Shown here one piece after another: positions 3,493 through 33,535 of a stretch of DNA of 33,535 nt (its first letter is position 1; every line of letters begins with the position of its first letter). The stretch is from contig JAKAPE010000015.1 in the NCBI GenBank assembly GCA_021811945.1, positions 1 through 33,535 of the forward strand, in the 5' to 3' direction. Made by a program: the position numbers and the translations under genes. The DNA is from Pseudomonadota bacterium (GTDB lineage: Bacteria > Pseudomonadota > Alphaproteobacteria > Rhizobiales > Xanthobacteraceae). The notes below the pieces were generated by a model. The model was not told the DNA's origin. It searched no databases and saw only the letters and a program-made list of their open reading frames with translations.

Positions 3493-5154
3493 ATGGAGAA
3501 GGCCATGAACGCCACGGACGCCGCCCGCGAGGCGATGGAGTTTGACGTCGTCATCGTCGGGGCCGGACCTGCCGGTCTTGGCGCGGCCATCAGGGTCAAG
3601 CAGGTCGCGCCACATACGTCGGTCGTGGTGGTCGAAAAGGGCTCCGAGGTCGGGGCGCACATCCTTTCCGGCGCGGTAATCGACCCGATCGGCCTCGACA
3701 GGCTCCTCCCGCAGTGGCGCAGCGAGGACACGCCGGTCAAGACTGCCGTCACCGCGGACCGCTTCTATATGCTTGGACCATCCGGCGCGGTACGGGTGCC
3801 GAATGCACTCTTTCCGCCGCTGATGAGCAATCACGGCAACTTCATCGTCTCGCTCGGCGACGTCTGCCGCTACCTCGCCAAAAAGGCCGAGGCGCTCGGG
3901 GTGGAAATCTATCCGGGCTTTGCCGCCGCCGAAGTGCTGTTCGACGACAATGTGGTCGCCGGCGTCGCCACCGGCGACATGGGCGTCGCCAAGGACGGCC
4001 ACCACAAGACAGGCTTCACCCGCGGCATGGAGCTGCGCGCCAAATACACCTTGTTCGCAGAGGGGGCGCGCGGCAGCCTTTCCAAGACGCTGATCGCGCG
4101 CTACGGCCTCGCGCACGGCCGCCAGCCGCAGAAATTCGGCATCGGCTTGAAAGAGCTGTGGCAGGTCCCGCCGGAGAACTTTCACAGCGGCCTCGCGCAG
4201 CACACGATGGGCTGGCCCCTTGGCAACCGCACCGGCGGCGGCTCCTTCCTCTACCATTTCGGCGACAATCTCGTGGCGGTCGGCTTCGTCGTCCACCTCA
4301 ATTACGAGAATCCCTATCTGTCGCCGTTCGAGGAGTTCCAGCGCTTCAAGACTCATCCGTTGGTCCGCGGCACCTTCGCGGGCGGCAGGCGCATCTGCTA
4401 CGGCGCCCGTGCGCTCACCGAGGGCGGTTGGCAATCGGTGCCGAAGCTCGTCTTTCCCGGCGGCGCTTTGATCGGCTGCGCCGCAGGGCTCATGAACGTG
4501 CCGCGCATAAAAGGCAGCCACAACGCGCTGCTCTCGGGCATCCTCGCGGCCGAGCATGTCGCCGCCGCGCTCGCGGCCGGCCGTGCCCGTGATGAGCTTT
4601 CGAGCTACGAGGCGGCGTGGCGAGCTTCGCCGATCGGGCGCGACTTGAAGCGCGTGCGCAACGTCAAGCCGCTGTGGTCGAAGCTCGGCACGCTTGCCGG
4701 CATCGCGCTCGGCGGCTTCGACATGTGGACCAACACGCTCGGCTTCTCCCTCCTTGGGACGCTCGCTCACGGCAAACCGGATTCGGCGACGCTCAAGCCG
4801 GCGGCCGGATGCCATCCTGTCGCCTACCCAAAACCGGACGGCAAGCTTACTTTCGACCGGCTGTCCTCGGTCTATCTCTCCAACACCAATCACGAAGAGG
4901 ATCAGCCGGCGCATCTCTTCGTGCGCGACAGCGCCTTGCAAAAATCTTCCGAATACGACGTCTACGCCGGGCCGTCGTCCCGCTATTGCCCGGCCGGAGT
5001 CTACGAATGGGTTGAGGAAGGCGGGACACCCCGCTTTGTCATCAACGCGCAGAACTGCGTCCACTGCAAAACCTGCGACATCAAGGACCCCAACCAGAAC
5101 ATCACCTGGGTGCCCCCCGAAGGCGGCGGCGGGCCGAATTATCCGAATATGTGA
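3493..5154 (+). CDS. Electron transfer flavoprotein-ubiquinone oxidoreductase
   Basis: 553 aa; FAD GxGxxG motif (VVIVGAGPAGLGAAIR), C-terminal 4Fe-4S ferredoxin domain (NCVHCKTCDIKDPNQNITWVPPEGGGGPNYPNM). Confidence 0.97.
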   Translation: MEKAMNATDAAREAMEFDVVIVGAGPAGLGAAIRVKQVAPHTSVVVVEKGSEVGAHILSGAVIDPIGLDRLLPQWRSEDTPVKTAVTADRFYMLGPSGAVRVPNALFPPLMSNHGNFIVSLGDVCRYLAKKAEALGVEIYPGFAAAEVLFDDNVVAGVATGDMGVAKDGHHKTGFTRGMELRAKYTLFAEGARGSLSKTLIARYGLAHGRQPQKFGIGLKELWQVPPENFHSGLAQHTMGWPLGNRTGGGSFLYHFGDNLVAVGFVVHLNYENPYLSPFEEFQRFKTHPLVRGTFAGGRRICYGARALTEGGWQSVPKLVFPGGALIGCAAGLMNVPRIKGSHNALLSGILAAEHVAAALAAGRARDELSSYEAAWRASPIGRDLKRVRNVKPLWSKLGTLAGIALGGFDMWTNTLGFSLLGTLAHGKPDSATLKPAAGCHPVAYPKPDGKLTFDRLSSVYLSNTNHEEDQPAHLFVRDSALQKSSEYDVYAGPSSRYCPAGVYEWVEEGGTPRFVINAQNCVHCKTCDIKDPNQNITWVPPEGGGGPNYPNM

Positions 5155-7177: not shown

Positions 7178-8080
7178 TTGTCGCTGCCCGTTCAGCCGGT
7201 CGAGAAAGCGCCGGCCAAGGTCAACTTGACCCTGCGGGTCGTAGCTCGCCGCGGCGATGGCTATCATGAGATCGAAAGTTTGGTCGCCTTTGCCGACTTC
7301 GGCGACCGGCTGAGCCTTGCGCCGGGCAATACGATCGCGCTGACGGTGCGCGGAGCGAACGCGGCGCAAGCGGGCAGCGGGCCGGAAAATCTCGTCCTCA
7401 AGGCGGCGCACGCTCTCGCCGCGCGCTGTCCGGGCCTTCGGTTGGGCGCCTTTCGTCTCGACAAGAGACTCCCGGTGGCGGCCGGGCTCGGCGGCGGTTC
7501 CGCCGATGCCGCCGCGGCATTGCGGCTTCTCGGCCGGGCGAACGGCCTCGTCGGCAATGACCCTCGCCTCTACGATGCGGCCCACGCGACCGGCGCCGAC
7601 GTGCCGGTGTGCCTCGATCCGCGACCGCGCCTCATGCGTGGCATCGGTGACGTGCTCTCGACCCCGCTTTCGCTGCCGCCGCTATCCGCGGTTCTTGTCA
7701 ATCCCGGCGTGGCCGTGGCGACGAAGGCGGTTTTTGCCGGATGGCGGCCTGCTGACACGCCATCGGCCCCGCTCGATGTCGCCGTGCTCACCCACTTGGC
7801 CTCGCGCGACGAGTTCATGCGGTTGCTGGCCACGCAGGCGAACGACTTGCAAGACGCGGCGATTGCGCTCGCCCCGGTCATCGCCGGCGTCCTGGCTGCT
7901 TTGCGCGCCCTTACCGGCTGCCGCCTCGCCCGAATGTCGGGCTCGGGCGCGACCTGTTTCGGGCTGTTTCCATCTGCAGCCGCCGCGCGCCGCGCGGCCA
8001 AGCTGCTGCGCGCCAAATATGCCGAGTGGTGGATCAAAGCGGTGATTTTGGGCGGTGCGGGACGGCAACGTCTCGTGTAA
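7178..8080 (+). CDS. ispE: 4-diphosphocytidyl-2-C-methyl-D-erythritol kinase
   Basis: GHMP kinase: APAKVNLTLRVVARRGDGYHEIESLV, LPVAAGLGGGSADAAAALRLL, MSGSGATCFGLF. Confidence 0.95.
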   Translation: MSLPVQPVEKAPAKVNLTLRVVARRGDGYHEIESLVAFADFGDRLSLAPGNTIALTVRGANAAQAGSGPENLVLKAAHALAARCPGLRLGAFRLDKRLPVAAGLGGGSADAAAALRLLGRANGLVGNDPRLYDAAHATGADVPVCLDPRPRLMRGIGDVLSTPLSLPPLSAVLVNPGVAVATKAVFAGWRPADTPSAPLDVAVLTHLASRDEFMRLLATQANDLQDAAIALAPVIAGVLAALRALTGCRLARMSGSGATCFGLFPSAAAARRAAKLLRAKYAEWWIKAVILGGAGRQRLV

Positions 8081-8164
8081 GGGGCAGCCCCTTGCGGCCG
8101 TCCCGCAAGCGCCCACCAGAGGCGCTTCTACACGGTGGCACCCTGGCGCCGACCGGAACATGTA

Positions 8165-9175
8165 TCAATACGTGCGCGCAATACAAAAATCGACGGTTTC
8201 GGCGAGGGCAGTCTTCATCCTTGAATCAGGAAAGAGGGCGAGCGCGTCGCGAGCGATAGCGCCGTAATGATGGGCGCGGCCTATCGTGTCCTCGATCGCG
8301 CGGTGTTTGACCATGAGACCGATGGCGTGCTCGAGATCGGCCGTCGTCGCCTCGCCGCGTTCGAGCGTGCGCCGCCAAAACTCCCGCTCGGCGTCGCCGC
8401 CGCGGCGGAAAGCAAGCACTACCGGCAGGGTGATCTTGCCTTCGCGGAAATCGTCGCCGAGGTTCTTGCCAAGCTTGGCCGCGACGCCGCCGTAATCGAG
8501 CGCGTCGTCAACGAGCTGGAAGGTGATGCCGAGATTCATGCCGAAGGAGCGGCACGCGGCCTGCTCGTCGCGCTGGCGCGCCGACAGCACCGGTCCGACT
8601 TCGCAGGCGGCAGCGAACAGTTCGGCGGTCTTGGCGCGGATGACCGCGATATATTCGTCCTCGGTCGTCGCCGTATTCTTAGCCGCGGCAAGCTGCATGA
8701 CCTCGCCCTCGGCGATCACCGCCGCGGCCGCCGAAAGGATTTCCAGCGCCTTGAGGCTGCCAACCTCGACCATCATCTTGAACGCCTGGCCGAGGAGGAA
8801 ATCGCCGACCAGCACGCTCGCCTCATTTCCCCATAGCATCCGCGCGGCGAGCCGCCCGCGGCGCAGCTCGCTCTCGTCGACCACGTCGTCATGCAAAAGC
8901 GTTGCGGTATGCATGAACTCGACGGCCGCGGCGAGCTTGATATGGCCGTCCCCGGCATAGCCGGTGAGCCGCGCCAAAGCGAGCGTGAGCATGGGCCGCA
9001 GCCGCTTGCCACCGGAATTGATGAGATGGTTGGCGACCTCCGGGATCATCGCCACGTCGGAACCGGTGCGCGAAAGGATGACGCCGTTAACGCGTTCCAT
9101 GTCGCCGGTAACAAGGTCGAGCAACGGGTCGATCGACGGCTCACCGCGGCTCTCGAACGGGACGACGACGGCCAC
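8165..9175 (-). CDS. Polyprenyl (octaprenyl/decaprenyl-type) diphosphate synthase
   Basis: 336 aa; GGKRLRPML, LLHDDVVDESELRRG and FQLVDDALDYGG Asp-rich motifs. Confidence 0.95.
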   Translation of the reverse strand: MAVVVPFESRGEPSIDPLLDLVTGDMERVNGVILSRTGSDVAMIPEVANHLINSGGKRLRPMLTLALARLTGYAGDGHIKLAAAVEFMHTATLLHDDVVDESELRRGRLAARMLWGNEASVLVGDFLLGQAFKMMVEVGSLKALEILSAAAAVIAEGEVMQLAAAKNTATTEDEYIAVIRAKTAELFAAACEVGPVLSARQRDEQAACRSFGMNLGITFQLVDDALDYGGVAAKLGKNLGDDFREGKITLPVVLAFRRGGDAEREFWRRTLERGEATTADLEHAIGLMVKHRAIEDTIGRAHHYGAIARDALALFPDSRMKTALAETVDFCIARTY

Positions 9176-14294: not shown

Positions 14295-14756
14295 ATGGCA
14301 CAAATGCCCATCGACAGGTTTCGCCGCGCAATCGCCCGTCGGCTGCGCACACGCGCCACTGAGACGGAGATGCTGCTGTGGAAACGCCTTCGTGACATCG
14401 AGACGGACGGAACGCATTTTCGCCGTCAAGTACCCATCGGGCCTTACGTAGCCGATTTCGCCTGCATGGCGGCGCGATTAGTGATTGAACTGGACGGCTC
14501 GCAACACGCCACCGAAGAGCAGAGAGCAAAGGACGCGCACCGTACACGCTGGCTCGAATCGGAAGGCTATCGCGTGCTCCGTTTTTGGAATAGCGATCTT
14601 GCTTATAACATGGATGGCGTGCTGGAGACCATATACGCGGCGCTTTATGGTTCGCGTGATTCCGAGACGCAATCCCTGAAGCACAATCGGCGGCAACGCC
14701 GTCACCCCACCCCGGCGCGCTTCGCGCGCCGACCCTCCCCCTCCAGGGGAGGGTGA
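14295..14756 (+). CDS. DUF559 (Vsr/restriction-endonuclease-like fold) protein
   Basis: [92 protein letters not shown] 14295 chosen (14286 GTG also possible). Confidence 0.93.
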
Positions 14757-14758
14757 AA
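14701..14758 (-). repeat. Right, inverted copy of the palindromic repeat flanking the DUF559 gene
   Basis: Reverse complement TTTCACCCTCCCCTGGAGGGGGAGGGTCGGCGCGCGAAGCGCGCCGGGGTGGGGTGAC aligns to 14198-14259; it overlaps the 3' end of the DUF559 CDS. Confidence 0.9.
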
Positions 14759-14766
14759 GACCGAAC

Positions 14767-16929
14767 ATGCCCGACCTGCTGCTCGAACTCTTCTCCGAGG
14801 AAATTCCGGCGCGCATGCAGGCGCGGGCGGCGGACGATTTGCGCCGGCTGGTGACCGGCCGGCTGGTCGATGCCGGTCTGCTCTACGAAGGCGCCAAGGC
14901 GTTCGTGACGCCACGCCGCCTGGCGCTTTCCGTACACGGCCTGCCGGCACGGCAGGCGGACGTGCACGAGGAGAAGAAGGGACCGCGCGTCGGCGCCCCG
15001 GAGGCCGCAATCGCCGGCTTCGTCAAGGCCGCAGGACTTAAATCCATCGGCGAAGCCAGGGTGCAGGCGGACAAGAAAGGCGACTTTTATGTCGCCGTGA
15101 TCGAGAAGCCCGGTCGCCCTGCGATCGAAGTGATCGGCGAAATCCTGCCGGACGTGATCGGGAATTTTTCCTGGCCGAAATCCATGCGCTGGGGCACGCG
15201 GTCAAAGGAACCTGGGGCGCTGAACTGGGTGCGGCCGCTGCATTCGATCCTCGCCACCTTCGGGCCGGAGACCGAGGAGCCGGATATCGTGCCCTTCAAG
15301 ATTGACGGCATCGCCGCCGGCAACGTTACCCGCGGCCATCGCTTCATGGCGCCCGACCGGATCGCCGTGCGCCGGCTCGCCGACTACATGCAGAAGCTCG
15401 ATCGGGCCAAGGTCGTGCTCGACCCTGAGCGGCGGCGCGACATCATCCTCGCCGAGGCCAAGAACCTGGCCTTCGCCCAGGGCCTCGAACTCATCGAGGA
15501 CGACGGCCTGCTTGCCGAGGTCGCCGGCCTGGTCGAATGGCCGGTGGTGCTGACGGGTTCTTTTGATCCTGGCTTTCTCCACATTCCGCCGGAGATGATC
15601 CGCGCCACCATCCGCAACAACCAGAAATGTTTCGTCCTGCGCGATCCGGCTCACGCAAAACTTGCCGACAAATTCATTCTCGTCGCCAATATCGAAGCCG
15701 AGGACGGCGGCAAGGCGATCCTCGCCGGCAACGAACACGTCATCCGTGCCCGTCTTGCCGACGCCAAGTTCTTCTATGAAACCGATGCCAAAACGCCGCT
15801 GGAAGCGCGGCTGGAAAAATTCAAGGACATCGTCTTTCATGAAAAGCTCGGCACCCAATGGGAGCGCATCGAAAGGATCGAGCGGCTTGCGGCAGAGCTC
15901 GCCCCGCTGGTCGGCGCTGACGTCGAGAAGGCCAGGCGAGCAGCGCGCCTGTGCAAGGCCGATCTGCTCACGGAAGCGGTCGGCGAGTTTCCCGAGCTGC
16001 AAGGCGTCATGGGAAAATACTACGCCGAGGAGCAAGGCGAGGACGAAGCGGTCGCCCATGCGATCGAGGACCACTATAAGCCGCAAGGACCCGACGACTT
16101 CGTGCCCAGTGAGCCGGTTTCGGTTGCGGTAGCGCTGGCGGATAAAATCGATACGCTGGCGGGCTTCTGGGCTGTCGGCGAAAAGCCGACAGGGAGCAAG
16201 GACCCATTTGCGCTGCGAAGGGCGGCGCTGGGGGCGATACGCGTCATTCTCGACAATGAACTGCGGCTTCGGTTGATCCCTCTGCTCGTGGACCATTTCG
16301 GCGTCATTGCCGGGCTTGACCTGGCAATCCATGCAACCGCGACGCATACACAAACCAGAAAGATGGATCACCGGGTCAAGCCCGGTGATGACAGCCGAGG
16401 AGTCGATGACCTCCTGGTCTTTCTGGCCGACCGCCTCAAAGTACAGCTCCGCGAGCAAGGGGCGCGGCATGATCTGGTAGACGCGGTGTTTGCGCTGGAA
16501 GGCCAGGACGATCTCGTCCTCATCGTCCGCCGCGTCGAGGCGCTGGGAAAATTCCTCGATACCGAGGACGGCAAGAACCTCCTCGCCGGCTACAAGCGCG
16601 CGACCAGCATCATCCGCATCGAGGAGAAGCGGGACGATCGCGCTTATAAAGGCGCACCCGATCCGAAGCTCTATGAACTTACCGAAGAGGAGACGTTGGC
16701 GCGCGAGATCCAACTGGCCAAGGAAATTGCCGCGCGAGCAATCGAGATGGAGGATTTTGAAGCAGCCATGCGTCCTATGGCGAGACTACGGCACAGCGTA
16801 GATGCCTTCTTCGACAAGGTGACGGTCAATGTCGAAGACAGAGGGCTACGGGAGAACCGGCTGAGACTGCTCAACGAGATCCGCGCCGCGACGCGCGCCG
16901 TGGCCGATTTCTCCCGCATCGAGGGGTAA
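14767..16929 (+). CDS. glyS: Glycyl-tRNA synthetase beta subunit, with a 30-aa repeat-derived insertion
   Basis: [29 protein letters not shown]..., [31 protein letters not shown]; insertion [30 protein letters not shown]. Confidence 0.97.
16303..16392 (+). repeat. Palindromic intergenic-type repeat inserted in-frame in glyS (90 nt)
   Basis: GTCATTGCCGGGCTTGACCTGGCAATCCAT...ATGGATCACCGGGTCAAGCCCGGTGATGAC; outer arms GTCAT..CCGGGCTTGACC / GGTCAAGCCCGG..ATGAC. Confidence 0.92.
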
Positions 16930-23638: not shown

Positions 23639-23713
23639 TGGGGCGTAGCCAAGTGGTAAGGCAGCGGATTTTGATTCCGCCATGCGGAGGTTCGAATCCT
23701 CCCGCCCCAGCCA
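23639..23713 (+). tRNA. tRNA-Gln (anticodon TTG), CCA encoded
   Basis: TGGGGCGTAGCCAAGTGGTAAGGCAGCGGATTTTGATTCCGCCATGCGGAGGTTCGAATCCTCCCGCCCCAGCCA; acceptor, anticodon (GCGGA-TTTTGAT-TCCGC) and T-arm (GAGG-TTCGAAT-CCTC) all pair. Confidence 0.97.
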
Positions 23714-25177: not shown

Positions 25178-28100
25178 GTGAGTGCTGAAGTCGCCATCCG
25201 CGAAGGTCAAATCCTCACCGGTCCGCTGTTCAGCGAGCCGATGCGGGTCGAGACAGTGCGGGCCGACGGCGCCGACGCATGGGTCGTCGGCGTTGTCGGT
25301 TTGCGCTCGGAGCAATTCCGCAGGGTCACACTCAGAACCGCGGACCTCGTGGGGCTGACGATTACAGAGACCGGCCCTTCCTATACTGGCGATGGTCGTC
25401 TGCTGCGCCTCGCCCTGCAGGCATACTCGCTCGGGATTGCCTACGAGTTTGATCCGTACTTCGGGCTCTCGATTTCACGCGTCGATCCGCTGCCGCATCA
25501 GCTTGAGGCAGTTTATGAGTACCTGCTCAAGCTTCCCCGCGTCCGCTTCTTGCTCGCCGACGACGCCGGCGCCGGCAAGACCATAATGGCTGGGCTACTG
25601 ATCCGGGAGCTTAAGCTTCGCGGATTGGTCGAGCGTGCGCTCGTGGTCTGCCCGGCGAACCTGACGTTTCAATGGCAGCGGGAGCTGAAGGAAAAGTTCG
25701 ACGAAAAGTTCCTCGTCCTAAAAGGCGGCGATATTCGCGATCAATTCGGCGTCAATCAATGGCTGGAACAGAAGCAAGTCATCACATCGCTTGATCTTGC
25801 CAAGCGCACCGAAATTCTCCCCGGCCTACGTCAAGTGCCGTGGGACCTGGTGGTTGTCGATGAAGCGCACCGCATGTCCTGGTCGCCGCCGGCACGCAAG
25901 ACGGCGCGTTACGCTTTGGGCGAACTTCTGCGCGACAGCTCCAACCACATCTTGCTGCTGACGGCGACGCCGCACAAAGGTGACCCACAGAATTTTACTC
26001 TCTTCCTGCAGCTGCTCGATCCCGATGCCTATGCAGATGTTCGATCGATCCGTGAGGCGATGGATCGACAAAGAGCACCCTTCTATCTCCGCCGGACCAA
26101 GGAGGCGATGGTCTATTTCCCGGAGCGAGAACCGGATGGTCGCTGGGTTGCCCGACAGGTATTTACGAAGCGGATACCCCATACCGCCGGCTTCGAAATC
26201 GACGGGCCGGAATTCGACCTCTATAAAGATGTGACCCGTTTTGTGAAACGGCAAAGCGCTCGGGCCGCGGCGCAGGGCGATGATCCTCGGGCCCGTGCGG
26301 TTGGCTTCTTAATGTCGCTATACCAACGGCGCCTCGCATCCAGCACCCATGCGATGCGGCAGTCGTTAGAAAATCGAATTCGACGCCTGGAGGAAGGCCT
26401 CGAACGCGCGCAGACCCTTGCGCAGATGGCGCCGCCGACGCTTCCCGATCCCGAAGACATCGAGGAGATGGAGGACACGGAGCGCGAGCGCCTCGAGGAA
26501 ATGATCGAGGCGATCACGCTCACCGGAAACGCGGAGCAGGTTCACGAGGAAATCGCCGAATTGAAGGAACTGGCGGAGAAAGCCAGGGCCATTGAAGCGA
26601 GCGGCTTGGAAGCCAAGTTAGGCCGCCTCAAAGGCATCTTGCAGGACGAGGGCTTCTTCGATCATTCCGACCAGCGCCTGCTTCTCTTCACCGAGTTCAA
26701 GGACACGCTCGATTACCTCGTCGCCCAACTCAAGGCGTGGGGCTTCAGAGTCGGCTTTATCCACGGCGGCATGAAACCGGGATCGCGCGAAGAGCCTGGC
26801 TCACGGATTTACGTCGAGCAACAGTTTCGAGAAGGCGAAATTCAGGTCCTGGTTGCGACTGAGGCTGCTGGCGAAGGCATCAACCTTCAATGCTGTCACA
26901 TTCTCTTTAACTACGACATTCCGTGGAACCCGAATCGCCTCGAACAGCGCATGGGCCGAATCCACCGTTACGGCCAGCGGTTCGACTGCCTGATCTTCAA
27001 TTTCGTCGCGACCAACACGATTGAAGGGCGAGTTCTCCAGCGGCTCTTGCACAAGCTCCAGGAAATCCGCGATGCATTGGACGACGATGCCGTCTTTAAC
27101 GTCGTTGGCGAGGTGCTCCCGGCGGCCCACATTGAGCGTGTGCTGCGTGACTACTACGCCGGCCGTCTCGGCGACGTGGACCTCGAAGATCGTCTGCTGC
27201 GCGACGTCGACGAGAACCATTTCCGCGCAATTTGTCAGACAGCGCTGGAAGGCCTGGCGTCCAAGAGGCTCAATCTCGACATGCTGATCGAACGGCGCGC
27301 CAAGGCGCAGGAGCGCCGTGTGGTGCCTGAAACCATCGCGCGCTTCATCAAGGAGAGCGCAGAGATCGTGCCGTTTCCGTTACAACTAGTCGCGAGCTTA
27401 CCACACACTTTCGATCCAGGCCGGACGGCACCGACCTTGCGGAAGTACGAACGCGATTCCGATTGGAAGCTGCCGCCGTTGGTGACACGCTATCCGCGTC
27501 TTTCGACAGACCGTGATATTGCGGAGAGCAACAATCTCGAATGGGTGACGCCCGGCCATCCCCTCTTTGAAGCGTTGCGACGCCACGGCTTCGAGGCCGG
27601 GCATGATGCGTTCGCCGCGGGGGCCAGTTTTCTTTCGCTTGAACACGCCGCGCCCGCACGCCTCGATTTCTATCGCGCACGCGTCGTGGACGGTCTCGGA
27701 CACGTCATCCACGAGCGTCTGTTCGTGGTCGAGCTGTCGCAAGATGGCAAACCCCGGCTTCGCGAGCTCGATGTTGTTGGCAATCTGACACCCGCCCCTG
27801 CCGCCAGCCCTGCGCCGTCGGTAGCCTCGCTGCCGGAGGCGACCGGGTGGCTCAACGAGCATGTGTTGATGCCGTTTCTCGACGAGGTGCGTGCCGAACG
27901 GTTGGCCGAGGTTGATCGAGTCGCAAGGCACGTCGAGTTATCGCTGACCGAAGTTCTGCAACGGATCGACGAGGAGATCGGACGTGCCGCCGAAGAGGTT
28001 GAGAAAGGCACTCCAGGCGCGGAAGGACGGTTGGCGCAGGCGGAGTCGCGTTATGCTGACGTCCTGGCGCGGCGCGATCGGCGACGCGAGGAACTGCGGC

Positions 28101-28633
28101 GCCAGCAAGCGCTTTCGCTGCAGGGCGTCGAGCGTATGGCAAGCGCGCTGGTCCTCCCGCATCCCGAGCGAGACGCGCCGGAGGTCCGGCGGCTTCAGCC
28201 AGACCCGGAGGTCGAGCAGAAGGCTATGGATGTTGTCATAGCCTACGAGGCCGCGCAGGGCCGCAATCCCGAGGATGTGCACGAAAAGAATCTCGGCTAC
28301 GACATTAAAAGCATCGATCCCACGTCGGGCGAGTTGCGGCTCATCGAGGTGAAAGGCCTCGGCGCCGCCCTTGGCCGTGTCCTGCTCACCCCCAACGAGC
28401 GTCGCGTGGCGGAGGACCGGCGCGACTGCTATTGGCTCTACGTCGTGACAAACTGCGACGCGACGGCCGAACTACAAGAGCCGGTCCGCGACCCGGCGCG
28501 CTTCCCGTGGCACGAGGTCATGAAAATCCAGCACTACTGGCTTGAAGTGAATGCGATGACCCGGCCGATGGAAGTGAGGGAACAAGATCAAGCGCCGTAC
28601 AGGGGGCCGGACGGTGATTCCGAAGGAGTGTAA
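25178..28633 (+). CDS. SNF2-like DEAD/DEAH helicase with C-terminal DUF3883 domain, putative anti-phage component
   Basis: 1151 aa; DDAGAGKTIMAGLLIREL, VVDEAHRM, LLTATPHKG, HGGMKPGSRE, ATEAAGEGINLQCCHILFNYDIPWNPNRLEQRMGRIHRYGQ; C-terminal NPEDVHEKNLGYDIKSIDPTSGELRLIEVKGL...LTPNERRVAEDRRDCYWLYVV (DUF3883). Confidence 0.93.
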   Translation: MSAEVAIREGQILTGPLFSEPMRVETVRADGADAWVVGVVGLRSEQFRRVTLRTADLVGLTITETGPSYTGDGRLLRLALQAYSLGIAYEFDPYFGLSISRVDPLPHQLEAVYEYLLKLPRVRFLLADDAGAGKTIMAGLLIRELKLRGLVERALVVCPANLTFQWQRELKEKFDEKFLVLKGGDIRDQFGVNQWLEQKQVITSLDLAKRTEILPGLRQVPWDLVVVDEAHRMSWSPPARKTARYALGELLRDSSNHILLLTATPHKGDPQNFTLFLQLLDPDAYADVRSIREAMDRQRAPFYLRRTKEAMVYFPEREPDGRWVARQVFTKRIPHTAGFEIDGPEFDLYKDVTRFVKRQSARAAAQGDDPRARAVGFLMSLYQRRLASSTHAMRQSLENRIRRLEEGLERAQTLAQMAPPTLPDPEDIEEMEDTERERLEEMIEAITLTGNAEQVHEEIAELKELAEKARAIEASGLEAKLGRLKGILQDEGFFDHSDQRLLLFTEFKDTLDYLVAQLKAWGFRVGFIHGGMKPGSREEPGSRIYVEQQFREGEIQVLVATEAAGEGINLQCCHILFNYDIPWNPNRLEQRMGRIHRYGQRFDCLIFNFVATNTIEGRVLQRLLHKLQEIRDALDDDAVFNVVGEVLPAAHIERVLRDYYAGRLGDVDLEDRLLRDVDENHFRAICQTALEGLASKRLNLDMLIERRAKAQERRVVPETIARFIKESAEIVPFPLQLVASLPHTFDPGRTAPTLRKYERDSDWKLPPLVTRYPRLSTDRDIAESNNLEWVTPGHPLFEALRRHGFEAGHDAFAAGASFLSLEHAAPARLDFYRARVVDGLGHVIHERLFVVELSQDGKPRLRELDVVGNLTPAPAASPAPSVASLPEATGWLNEHVLMPFLDEVRAERLAEVDRVARHVELSLTEVLQRIDEEIGRAAEEVEKGTPGAEGRLAQAESRYADVLARRDRRREELRRQQALSLQGVERMASALVLPHPERDAPEVRRLQPDPEVEQKAMDVVIAYEAAQGRNPEDVHEKNLGYDIKSIDPTSGELRLIEVKGLGAALGRVLLTPNERRVAEDRRDCYWLYVVTNCDATAELQEPVRDPARFPWHEVMKIQHYWLEVNAMTRPMEVREQDQAPYRGPDGDSEGV

Positions 28634-28762
28634 GAGATTGGCCGACTGGAGTTCCCACTCGAATGGTTTCTAAAAGCTCCGCGCGGTAGTTAAGCTGCTA
28701 TAGCGGATGGCAGGTGTAACCAGTCACTTAATCTAGACTTGAATTCGGCGAAGATAGACCTG

Positions 28763-29923
28763 ATGAGCGATATACGCAAACCGCAGCGGTTCTCAAAAGT
28801 TCGACTGAAGAATTGGAAGAATTTTGCCTCCTGCGATGTCGCCGTTGGAAGGCGTGTGTTCCTGGTCGGACCGAATGCGTCGGGGAAATCCAATTTCCTC
28901 GACGTGTTTCGCTTTTTGCGCGATCTTGCCTCTTTCGGAGGCGGATTTCAGGAAGCCACGGACCGTCGGGGTGGAGTGAGCGCCATTCGTTGTCTCGCGG
29001 CTCGCCGCTATCCCGATATCGAACTTCATGTCATGGTGCTAGGGACGGATGATTCCCCGAAATGGGAATACGAACTGGCGTTCAATCAGGATAACCAGCG
29101 CCGTGCCCGAATTAGAAAGGAGCGCATTACGCGAGACGAGCAACTGCTGCTGGACAGGCCGAATTCCGACGACGAACAGGACCCGGAACGTCTGACCCAG
29201 ACGCACCTAGAGCAAGTCAATGTGAACCGTGCCTTTCGCGAATTGGCGTCGTTTTTCGAATCGATCCGGTACTTGCACATTGTCCCGCAACTTGTTCGTG
29301 AGCCCGACCGTTCAGTAGGTCGGGCAAACGACCCTTTCGGTGGCGACTTCCTTGAGCAAATTGCCAAAACTCAGGAACGCACACGCCTTGCGCGACTCAA
29401 GCGTATCCGTGATGCGCTCAAGGTGGCGGTTCCTCAGCTGGCCGAGATCGAGCTAGTTCGCGACAATCGCGGCACACCGCATCTGCGCGGGAAATACGAG
29501 CACTGGCGGCCCCAGGGGGCTTGGCAAACTGAGGAACAGTTCTCCGACGGCACTTTGCGGCTCATGGGCCTGTTGTGGGTTGCGATGGAGGGCGGCGGTC
29601 CCCTGCTGTTGGAAGAACCAGAACTGTCGCTGCATCCCGAAATCGTGCGCTACTTGCCGCAAATGTTTGCACGCGTGCAACGTCGGACCGGAAGGCAGGT
29701 TATTCTGAGTACCCATTCGCCCGATCTCTTGCGCGACGAGGGTATTGGGCTCGATGAAGTGTTGCTGCTGCGGCCACGGGCTGAAGGCACAGAGGTGCAG
29801 CCGGCAAGCGCTTTCTCTGAGATTCCTCAGTTGCTCGAAGGCGGTTCAACGCTTGCCGAGGCCGTTATACCTCGAACCCGCCCAGAGCATGCGGAGCAAC
29901 TGAGTCTGTTCGGAGATCTCTGA
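28763..29923 (+). CDS. SMC/OLD-like AAA ATPase, putative anti-phage component
   Basis: MSDIRKPQRFSKVRLKNWKNFASCDVAVGRRVFLVGPNASGKSNFLDVFRFLRDLA (Walker A), LLLEEPELSLHPEIVRYLPQMF (signature/Walker B), QVILSTHSPDLLRDEG (D-loop/His). TTG 28739 is an alternative start. Confidence 0.92.
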   Translation: MSDIRKPQRFSKVRLKNWKNFASCDVAVGRRVFLVGPNASGKSNFLDVFRFLRDLASFGGGFQEATDRRGGVSAIRCLAARRYPDIELHVMVLGTDDSPKWEYELAFNQDNQRRARIRKERITRDEQLLLDRPNSDDEQDPERLTQTHLEQVNVNRAFRELASFFESIRYLHIVPQLVREPDRSVGRANDPFGGDFLEQIAKTQERTRLARLKRIRDALKVAVPQLAEIELVRDNRGTPHLRGKYEHWRPQGAWQTEEQFSDGTLRLMGLLWVAMEGGGPLLLEEPELSLHPEIVRYLPQMFARVQRRTGRQVILSTHSPDLLRDEGIGLDEVLLLRPRAEGTEVQPASAFSEIPQLLEGGSTLAEAVIPRTRPEHAEQLSLFGDL

Positions 29924-29925
29924 GC

Positions 29926-30528
29926 ATGGCGAATGGCGTCGCGATCTCGGCCGCGGTGGAGGGCATTGTGGATGAGGCAGTGGCACGCACTCTGATCCTT
30001 TTTGCTGGAGCAAGCCCCGGACCCGTATATGGGAAAAACGGCAAGCGAACCCTGCAGCAACGGATTCGTGGGTATAATGCCGCGGCACGGCATGCGCCCT
30101 GGATCGTGCTCGTCGATCTTGACAGCGATCATGATTGCGCGCCGCCGCTTCGCGCTTCCTGGTTGCCGCAACTGGCACCGCATCTGTGCTTTCGCGTCGC
30201 CGTGCGCGCTGTCGAAGCATGGCTTCTCGCCGACGCCGAGCGCGTGGCGGCTTTCCTGGCCGTAGCGCGCGGCACAGTTCCAGCCGATCCAGAAGCTCTG
30301 GACAATCCGAAGGCGGCCATGGTCGCACTGGCTCGCGCATCCCGGCGAAAGGAGGTCCGCGAGGATATGGTGCCACAGGACGGAAGCGGCCGTCGCGTCG
30401 GGCCGGCTTATGCGTCCCGGCTCATCGAGTTTGCCGCATCGTCCTGGCGACCGGAGGTCGCCGCGCAAAGAGCGGACAGTCTGCGGCGCGCAATCGACTG
30501 TCTAAGACGCCTCGTGAGGCCGGGATGA
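29926..30528 (+). CDS. Toprim-like small protein (DUF4276/OLD-nuclease-like), partner of the upstream ATPase
   Basis: 200 aa; ISAAVEGIVDEAVARTLI (Toprim-type Glu motif), PWIVLVDLDSDHDC (DxD), CFRVAVRAVEAWLLADAE; 2 nt after the ATPase stop. Confidence 0.7.
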   Translation: MANGVAISAAVEGIVDEAVARTLILFAGASPGPVYGKNGKRTLQQRIRGYNAAARHAPWIVLVDLDSDHDCAPPLRASWLPQLAPHLCFRVAVRAVEAWLLADAERVAAFLAVARGTVPADPEALDNPKAAMVALARASRRKEVREDMVPQDGSGRRVGPAYASRLIEFAASSWRPEVAAQRADSLRRAIDCLRRLVRPG

Positions 30529-33446
30529 TCCCTCGTGACTGTAAGCGCCTCGCGGAGGTGGATTTTCCCATTGCAGTCGTTTCCAAACACGCGGCGCGGG
30601 AGAAATCGATCCGCCACGGCCACCTGTCGACGCTGCATCTGTGGTGGGCGCGCCGGCCGCTGGCGTCCTGCCGGGCGATGCTGCTGGCGCTGCTTCTACC
30701 CGATCCCTGCGATCCGCATTGCCCGTCAGACTTTAAGAGTAAAGCTCGCGAAATCCTAAGGGCCGTGCCCGGTCGTGTCGGCAAGACTGACGACGATTTG
30801 CGAGCGGCGCTGCTTCGTTTCATCGGTGACTTCGCCGATTGGGACCACGCGGCCAATTCGACCTACATGGAAGCCGGCCGCGGCCTCGTGAAAGCCGCTC
30901 ACCCGGAGGAGATGCCGCTCGTCGTCGATCCTTTTGCTGGCGGCGGGTCGATCCCATTGGAAGCTTTACGGCTCGGATGCGATACCTTCGCGAGCGACCT
31001 CAATCCCGTCGCCTGCCTGATTCTCAAAGCAACGCTTGAAGACATCCCAAAGCACGGGCGTAAGCTCGCTGAGGACCTGCGCCGTGTTGGGGCAGAAATC
31101 AAACAGCAGACGGAGAAAGAACTCACCGGCCTTTATCCAAAGGATTCAGATGGCGCGACGCCGATCGCCTACCTTTGGGCACGGACAGTGTGTTGCGAAT
31201 CCCCGAACTGTGGCGCGGAAATCCCACTGATACGTTCTTTCTGGCTTTGCACGAAAGCGAAGCGTCGGCGCGCGCTACGGCACCAGGTAGTGCGATCCGC
31301 AGGGGGGACGCCTCGCGTGGAGTTTGGGGTTTTCCAGCCAAGCAGGGAGAAGGATGTTCATGCTGGCACAACGACGCGCGCGAGGGCCACCTGCCTAGCG
31401 TGCGGCGCAGTGCTCTCGGCCGAACGCGTTCGAGCACAGCTCACATCACAGCATGGTGGGGCCGATGTGGTCTTCGAGCGCCTTCGCCGTAAAAGCGGGG
31501 CAAGGATGCTCGCCGTCGCCACGCTCCAGTCCGGCGAGCCAGGTAGACACTATCGCCAGCCGACGGAGCGCGATTATGAGGTCGTGTGCATCGCACAGGA
31601 GCGCCTCGCAGCAATCCTCGACGAGTGGGAGCGCGGCGGGAAACAGGGCCTCTGCCCAGTTCCGGATGAAATGATTTCTCTCAACGAGATCCGAAGGATC
31701 AGCGTGCCAATTTATGGGATGACGAGTTGGGGTGATCTCTTCGCTGCCCGCCAAAAGGTGGCGCTTGTGACGCTCGGGCGGGTTGCCAGGGAGCGGTCCC
31801 AATCTGAAACCGCCGCCGTTCGGACGGCGATGGCGATTGTTGTCAGCAAGCTCGCGGACTACGGCTCAGCCCAGGCTACTTGGGTTTCGGGCGGCGAGTT
31901 CGTCCGAGGGACGTTCGGTCGTCAGGCCATAGGCATGGTGTGGGACTGGACTGAGGCCGTGCCTTGGACTGATTCGTCGGGAAACTTTGATGGCGCACTT
32001 GATTGGGTGGTGAAGGTCGCCGAGGCATGGCCTGGCTCAGGAATTGGGCAGACCCAGCCCGCGAACGCCGCTGAGCATCCTTTGCCCGACCAGTCGGCGC
32101 CCATCTGGTTCACAGACCCCCCATACTACGACGCCGTTCCGTATGCCCATTTGTCGGACTTTTTCTATGTGTGGCTGCGCCGAATGTTCGAAGGGACGAG
32201 CCCGGCCGCATTTGGGTCGACTGTAACGCCGAAGGATGCCGAGATTGTCGTGGACCGACCTCACGCACTGAGTCATTCGAAAAAAGACGTAACCTCGTAC
32301 CAAATAGGGATGGCCCGCGCGTTCGCGGAGGGCCGACGCGTGCTCCGGGAGTCGGGGATCGGTTGCGTCGTTTTCGCTCACAAAACAACGGAGGGCTGGG
32401 AGGCACTGCTTTCAGGCATGATCAGCGGTGGGTGGACGATCACGAGTTCTTGGCCGATTGCAACAGAGAGGGGCTCCAGGGTAAACGCTCGTGACACTGC
32501 GTCCCTTGCCACCAGCGTCCACCTCGTCTGCCGCCCACGCCCTGATGACGCCCCGACTGGCGATTGGGCCGAGGTCATAAGTGAGTTGCCAGGACGTGTC
32601 GCCGATTGGATAGTCCGACTGGAGCGCGAAGGCGTACGCGGCGCTGACCTCGTCTTCGCTTGCATTGGCCCGGCACTCGAAATTTTCAGCCGCTATGCTC
32701 GTGTGGAAACGCCGGATGGGCGTGAAGTGCCGCTTCCCGAGTATCTGGAGAAGGTTTGGGAGGTCGTCGGCCGTGCAGCGCTGGAGCAGGTGCTCGGCAC
32801 CGCCGAGGCTCAAGCCCGCAATGGTGGCGCTGGCGCGCTCGAAGAAGATGCGCGTCTTACGGCCCTGTTCCTCTGGACCATCAAATCGACCGCCTCCGAG
32901 AACAGCCTAGCAGACAACGAGACTAAAGAGGACGAAGATACGGAAGATGACGACGAAGATTCCGACGGCGGAAAGAAGACCGCCAAGGGTTTCTCTCTCG
33001 TCTTCGACATTGTACGCCGCTTCGCACAGCCGCTCGGTGTCCATCTCGAAACCTGGCAGGGACGCATCATCAACATCGAGAAGGGGGTGGTCCGCCTGCT
33101 GCCGGTAAGCGAGCGGGCGCGGCAGTTGTTCGGCCAGGAAGGTGCGGCGGGCCTTGCCGCCCGGATCGAGCGCGCGCCGCAGAGCGCCCAACTCGAACTT
33201 TTTCCTGCCGCAAGCGAGGCGTTGCCAAAAGTGAACGACCGCGGCAAACGTGCCGTAGCCACAGCCTCTGTCGAGTCCGCAGGCCCGCTTCAGGCCACGA
33301 CGCTTGACCGCGTCCATGCCGCCATGCTGCTCCAGGCGAGCGGTCGGGCGAACGCGCTGCGCGCTCTGCTTGCCGCCGAAAAAGAACGCGGCCCCGATTT
33401 TCTCCGTCTCGCCAATGCACTCTCGGCTCTGGTGCAGCGAGGCTAG
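30525..33446 (+). CDS. DUF1156-type DNA adenine methyltransferase, C-terminally truncated
   Basis: Begins [61 protein letters not shown]; SAM motif [31 protein letters not shown]; catalytic [26 protein letters not shown]. ATGA overlap with previous gene; ORF-track start 30135 rejected. Confidence 0.9.
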   Translation: [973 protein letters not shown]

Positions 33447-33535
33447 CTGCCATTCTAGCGGGTGAAAGTCCCGCCAACAGAGGAGTCCAGTCGCTGTTGT
33501 AGTCATACCCAGCAACGGGGAGGGCAACCGATCCG
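33432..33535 (+). mobile_element. 5' end of a group II intron-like element, running off the contig
   Basis: Candidate 5' end GTGCAGCGAGGCTAGCTGCC; hairpin GCGGG-TGAAAGT-CCCGC (the common domain I 'GGTGAAAGTCCC' element); GTCATACCCAGCAACGGGGAGGGCAACCGATC. Confidence 0.55.

Follow-up and report, generated by a model that had tools for sequence, protein, structure and literature searches.

The locus analyzed here raises the question of what two abutting genes, one encoding an ATPase and the other a putative nuclease, are doing between a helicase gene and a methyltransferase gene: whether they belong to the operon that surrounds them or form a module of their own, and whether such a module is new. 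We addressed this in a window of 33,535 nt, which is the whole stretch of DNA that was analyzed.

An ATPase gene and a putative nuclease gene inside an Hma operon

The genes of interest and the ATPase motifs lie as follows.

25178–28633, forward strand: hmaA, SNF2 helicase with a C-terminal NOV_C (PD-(D/E)XK-like) domain (PADLOC HmaA, 9.6e-169; NOV_C, 1.1e-20)
28763–29923, forward strand: gene A (HEC-01A), OLD/RecF-type ABC ATPase, 386 aa, ATG start
28868–28894, forward strand: Walker A GPNASGKSN of gene A, residues 36–44
29603–29638, forward strand: Walker B LLLEEPELSLHP of gene A, residues 281–292, mostly invariant in 19 homologues
29708–29725, forward strand: H-loop STHSPD of gene A, residues 316–321, with S316-T317-H318 invariant in 19 homologues
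29926–30528, forward strand: gene B (HEC-01B), predicted stand-alone Toprim protein of DUF4276 type, 200 aa
30525–33446, forward strand: hmaB, DUF1156 adenine methyltransferase (PADLOC HmaB, 2.5e-115; DUF1156, 1.3e-22)

A first-pass annotation of this DNA had described a split OLD-like pair, with the ATPase and the Toprim domain on separate, abutting genes lodged between helicase and methyltransferase genes. Our analysis bears this out: the two open reading frames have a stop between them and a gap of 2 nt, gene B has a predicted Toprim fold (see below), and hmaA lies before the pair and hmaB after it. The coordinates and motifs given for the pair are also correct where stated, namely Walker A, Walker B and STHSPD in gene A, and VEGIVDE (residues 11–17), VDLDSD (63–68) and VEAWLLAD (96–103) in gene B. 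For gene A, a TTG-extended frame begins at 28739 (394-aa frame), and the stop of gene B overlaps the start of hmaB as ATGA (at 30525). The flanking HmaA and HmaB identify the surroundings as an Hma (type-1 BREX-related, type-1 BR) host operon; no HmaC (DUF499 ATPase) was found in the draft genome, and the contig ends 89 nt past hmaB (33446–33535). On the other side, a tRNA-Gln (23639–23713) separates the defence operon from housekeeping genes (glyQS, PEP-utilising dikinase, acyl-CoA dehydrogenase) and is a possible island boundary.

The motifs of both proteins are far beyond chance: gene A scores 4.6e-40 against Pfam AAA_21, and when 19 homologues of A and 23 of B are aligned, the motif positions vary little or not at all. 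These homologues come from Rokubacteria, Acidobacteria, Gemmatimonadetes, Desulfobacterota, Chloroflexi and others; within Walker A, G36, N38, A39 and G41–N44 are invariant in the 19 A homologues. Gene A also has weak RecF similarity (2.1e-6). Its structural model is of moderate quality (pLDDT 79), with PtuA of retron Eco7/Ec78 and Septu, GajA, and Rad50 as the best PDB folds, and the modelled fold is in line with an OLD/SMC-type ABC ATPase.

Gene B is predicted to be a Toprim protein with a two-metal site

Searched as a single sequence, gene B reached no Pfam family cut-off (DUF4276, PF14103: E 0.016, 15.9 bits against a gathering threshold of 30.2), and direct phmmer and profile searches against PDB sequences gave no match. 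As the single-sequence Pfam search stayed below the cut-offs, we take the Toprim nature of B from its predicted fold and from profile comparison. The AlphaFold2 model, built from a 23-sequence alignment, has a pLDDT of 90.4 and a pTM of 0.88, and runs b1(6–11), a(14–26), b2(30–36), a(40–53), b3(59–64), a(72–79) and b4(87–92), followed by helices. This modelled b-a-b-a-b-a-b core is in the Toprim order, with E on b1 and DxD on b3, so that the Toprim core for which the first-pass annotation had looked to structure prediction is present in the model. The best PDB fold matches, at a probability of 0.99, were two OLD proteins in their Toprim regions, one from Burkholderia and one from Xanthomonas (6NK8/6NJW), with TM-scores of only 0.44–0.47 and E about 3e-3; the next PDB match had a probability of 0.60. 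In the viral library, the best and sole strong match was an RloB-like protein (probability 0.99, TM 0.55).

The comparison with AriB, OLD Toprim and DUF4276, which had likewise been suggested, gave a placement for B: hhalign returned 96% for DUF4276, 98% for a DUF4276-like bridging set whose members score above the DUF4276 cut-off, 83% for OLD Toprim and 6.7% for DUF4435 (AriB). By these profiles, B belongs to the wider DUF4276 group and not to AriB (DUF4435). Its conserved acids E..D..DxD..E (E12, D16, D64, D66 and E97) follow the OLD two-metal order, and the same order is seen in the HECB, DUF4276, DUF4435 and OLD families.

29959–29973, forward strand: E12 ... D16 of B, conserved in 28/28 and 24/28, putative counterparts of OLD E400 / E404
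30115–30123, forward strand: D64-x-D66, predicted Toprim DxD of B, conserved in 28/28 and 27/28
30214–30216, forward strand: E97 (in VEAWLLAD) of B, conserved in 28/28, where the helix that follows strand b4 begins

The ligands of metal A in Bp OLD are E400, D455 and D457; E508 binds metal B, and E404 and T506 stabilise metal-B waters (PMC6755086). Judged by order and spacing, E12, D64 and D66 of gene B would correspond to metal A, and D16 and E97 would lie around metal B, with E97 as the probable metal-B glutamate and counterpart of OLD E508 / RNase M5 E110. This predicted metal site provides five targets for mutation; in OLD itself, single changes were tolerated in vitro.

The pair is a catalogued candidate system

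Both proteins match PADLOC-DB models over their full length: gene A matches HEC-01A (PDLC04180) at E = 6.7e-162 (residues 17–390 of the 394-aa frame to 2–380/382), and gene B matches HEC-01B (PDLC04194) at E = 4.2e-65 (3–198/204). The gene order is the same, as is the position between hmaA and hmaB. The pair is thus PADLOC HEC-01, "Hma-embedded candidate 01", and is already catalogued rather than new. The first-pass annotation had regarded it as a distinct split effector, a claim that we do not retain, as a 2026 comparative study also reported, independently, OLD-ABC ATPase/TOPRIM pairs from BREX and BREX-related (= Hma) loci and assigned them a role as backup effectors (PMC12839542). The term Hma-embedded candidate, as far as the source is quoted in later papers, goes back to a 2024 preprint that proposed genes located between Hma genes as defences (cited in PMC12111858, PMC12988326). 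In the literature searched, HEC-01 is named in one survey list only (PMC12724379), and we found there no experiments on it, antiviral ones included, and no mention of DUF4276. The locus is therefore a real, well-formed example of a known candidate system, an ATPase-Toprim module that is clearly recognizable as a catalogued one and whose subfamily is defined. Nothing in it defines a new system, and the new details are modest: a QLxLF tail on A and a duplication of the hmaB start, neither of which we found described in the literature searched.

Comparison with characterized systems gives partial likenesses. PARIS (AriA/AriB) shares the placement of ATPase and Toprim on separate genes and the Toprim E..DxD..E, but AriB is DUF4435, whereas B is of the DUF4276 group. 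OLD class 1-3 and Gabija GajA share the OLD-type ABC ATPase and the Toprim two-metal order and include the closest solved folds for B, but the OLD domains are joined in one polypeptide, while here there are two genes, no GajB and no reverse transcriptase. The likeness to RloA/RloB-type pairs comes from the fold match of B to the RloB-like phage protein of the viral library. For Septu and retron PtuA-PtuB, the resemblance lies in the PtuA ATPases that are the best PDB folds of A; PtuB is an HNH nuclease, unlike the predicted Toprim protein B. Lastly, HEC-04 (IbfA) is likewise an Hma-embedded candidate with ATPase plus Toprim, although the two are fused in one protein; this fusion gave protection against T4 and T5 (PMC12111858).

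The two genes co-occur, with and without Hma genes

In 23 of 24 related loci, A adjoins B; the spacing is usually 1–5 nt where the relationship is closer and reaches about 35 nt elsewhere. Of another 40 loci that the HEC-01B or DUF4276 models picked out, 38 have both Walker motifs in the open reading frame directly upstream. Pairwise distances of A and B co-vary (Mantel r 0.90 for 19 pairs and 0.79 for the core of the 14 closest; p = 0.0001). Hma genes surround or adjoin the pair not only in the window but also in loci L002, L006–L009, L011, L018 and L023. In L004 (725–14597) it is part of a BREX locus, with two PglX-like genes on one side and PglZ on the other. Its neighbours are a type III methyltransferase in L010, a TOTE element in L013, and housekeeping genes in L005 (gyrA), L015 (gatB), L019 (Mur ligase) and L021 (cvpA). 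Because it is also found in BREX, by other conflict genes and by housekeeping genes alone, we regard the pair as self-contained, in agreement with the first-pass annotation, which had considered a self-contained module that should co-occur elsewhere. The copies in L006, L012 and L023 look disrupted. L023 also carries a tandem duplication of the A end, a frameshifted B and the hmaB start (7815–8787 and 14670–15642).

The distribution is rare and patchy, with 6 strong matches among 399 genomes of the phylum and none in the 100 nearest relatives (0/100). Relatives of the pair were absent from a viral contig scan and from phage and plasmid collections. It is thus the patchy distribution that suggests mobility of the pair, as the phage and plasmid collections gave no matches.

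A duplicated hmaB start flanks the module

The module is flanked by a direct repeat of the hmaB 5' end.

28603–28689, forward strand: left copy, a decayed repeat of the first part of hmaB (VIPKECKRLAD...), ~90 nt, preceding gene A
30516–30602, forward strand: right copy, the intact hmaB start with which the left copy aligns

The two copies are identical in 59 of 89 aligned columns, and none of 2000 shuffles aligned as well. A fresher copy is present in L002, where 1804–1923 and 3736–3856 (the intact hmaB behind the module) share about 92% identity over 120 columns. From these alignments, the repeat is likely an insertion scar; in the simplest view, recombination at the hmaB start brings modules in and leaves a duplicated start behind. 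The scar is missing from some Hma-embedded copies, and no close "empty" hmaA-hmaB junction was found, the nearest relatives of the host being without both B and hmaB. By motif, other genes occupy the same hmaA-hmaB slot before gene A: a Fic gene (HPFRDGNGR) in L008 (5500–6845) and L011 (5470–6845), and a HEPN-like open reading frame in L002 (640–1800). These hmaB-start duplications suggest a route by which "embedded" defence modules enter host operons: recombination at the point where a conserved neighbour gene begins.

Proposed mechanism and alternative explanations

We propose that the pair is probably a module in which the OLD-type ABC ATPase A senses and regulates and the separate DUF4276-type Toprim two-metal nuclease B is the effector, in an auxiliary role within Hma. 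Precedents for ATPase-Toprim defence exist in PARIS (PMC12409363) and OLD/Gabija (PMC10568477), and by analogy with these the best-supported model is that A would be an ATP-gated sensor that holds or activates B. Most likely, A would dimerise or oligomerise with ATP and keep B in an inactive complex, until an infection signal, such as a phage protein or an abnormal DNA structure, causes A to release or activate B. The putative nuclease would then cut DNA, like OLD/GajA, or else tRNA, like PARIS AriB, and cutting would halt phage growth, probably by abortive infection. In the window, the pair would act as an auxiliary effector in an Hma operon whose own effector would be the HmaA helicase-nuclease, having most likely arrived by recombination at the hmaB start. 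The natural stand-alone versions, such as those of L005 and L016, mean that the pair can be tested apart from Hma.

Alternatively, the pair could be integral restriction subunits of Hma, with B as a nuclease for HmaA/HmaB that is licensed by HmaB methylation. The operon-like packing, with the 2-nt A-B gap and the ATGA overlap of B with hmaB, would fit this, as would the recurrence of the Hma context in the loci listed above, but HmaA has a nuclease-like C-terminal domain of its own, the same pair sits in BREX (L004) and by housekeeping genes where Hma genes are lacking, the slot takes the Fic and HEPN-like inserts as well, and the hmaB scar lies ahead of the module. We therefore consider it quite unlikely that the pair is integral to Hma. 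Methylation licensing, which the first-pass annotation had also raised, found no support, as the pairs by gyrA, gatB and cvpA have no methyltransferase among the neighbours examined; a licence from HmaB methylation is not needed to explain the pair, which most likely functions independently of HmaB.

Another unlikely identity for the pair is a variant form of PARIS, which would respond to anti-restriction proteins (Ocr, for instance) and cleave tRNA. The split into two genes resembles PARIS, and a trigger of that kind would suit a module embedded in restriction-like systems; A moreover matches PADLOC 'AriA' models (1.2e-38), though the model spans a 304-position AAA_21-like domain and we rejected the match as generic. 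Against this, A scores 537 bits to HEC-01A and 132 to AriA, B sides with DUF4276 in the profile comparison and not with the AriB family, and no AriB structure is among the 50 best fold matches of B. A toxin-antitoxin or housekeeping repair pair, in which A would be a RecF-like ATPase and B a RecR/RNase M5-like Toprim protein outside phage defence, would draw on the weak RecF similarity of A and on the lineages that keep the pair by cvpA/mur or gatB; given the very patchy occurrence and the recurring defence-island contexts, we regard it as very unlikely.

A conserved QLxLF tail on the ATPase

Returning to the ATPase-Toprim module that we favor, the C-terminus of A carries an additional short motif.

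29897–29911, forward strand: QLSLF motif at the C-terminus of A, in a low-confidence tail (pLDDT 48)

In the model, this tail is probably disordered. The pattern Q[LI]xL[FLW] is found at the C-terminus of A in 18 of the 19 subfamily members aligned and in 3 of another 5 (21/24), and in none of 35 partner ATPases of other DUF4276 families; it is thus restricted to this subfamily. QL[SD]LF is the consensus of the peptide that binds the bacterial sliding clamp. The related ATPase RecF is a DnaN binder that shows no clear clamp motif (PMC10287930), and in the literature searched we found no report of a clamp-like motif in a defence ATPase. We considered QLELF in HmaB as a second clamp motif and dropped it; it is absent from the HmaB of L002. 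One speculative reading, which we hold to be doubtful, is that the tail tethers HEC-01A of this subfamily to a sliding clamp (host DnaN or a phage clamp), so that the module would survey replication forks and fire the Toprim nuclease at a hijacked or phage fork. If the tail does bind the clamp, this would hint at the signal to which split OLD systems respond, so far known mainly for PARIS. In a competing and simpler reading, QLxLF may be a docking site for B, as the partner ATPases of other DUF4276 families carry conserved LW-type tails of their own.
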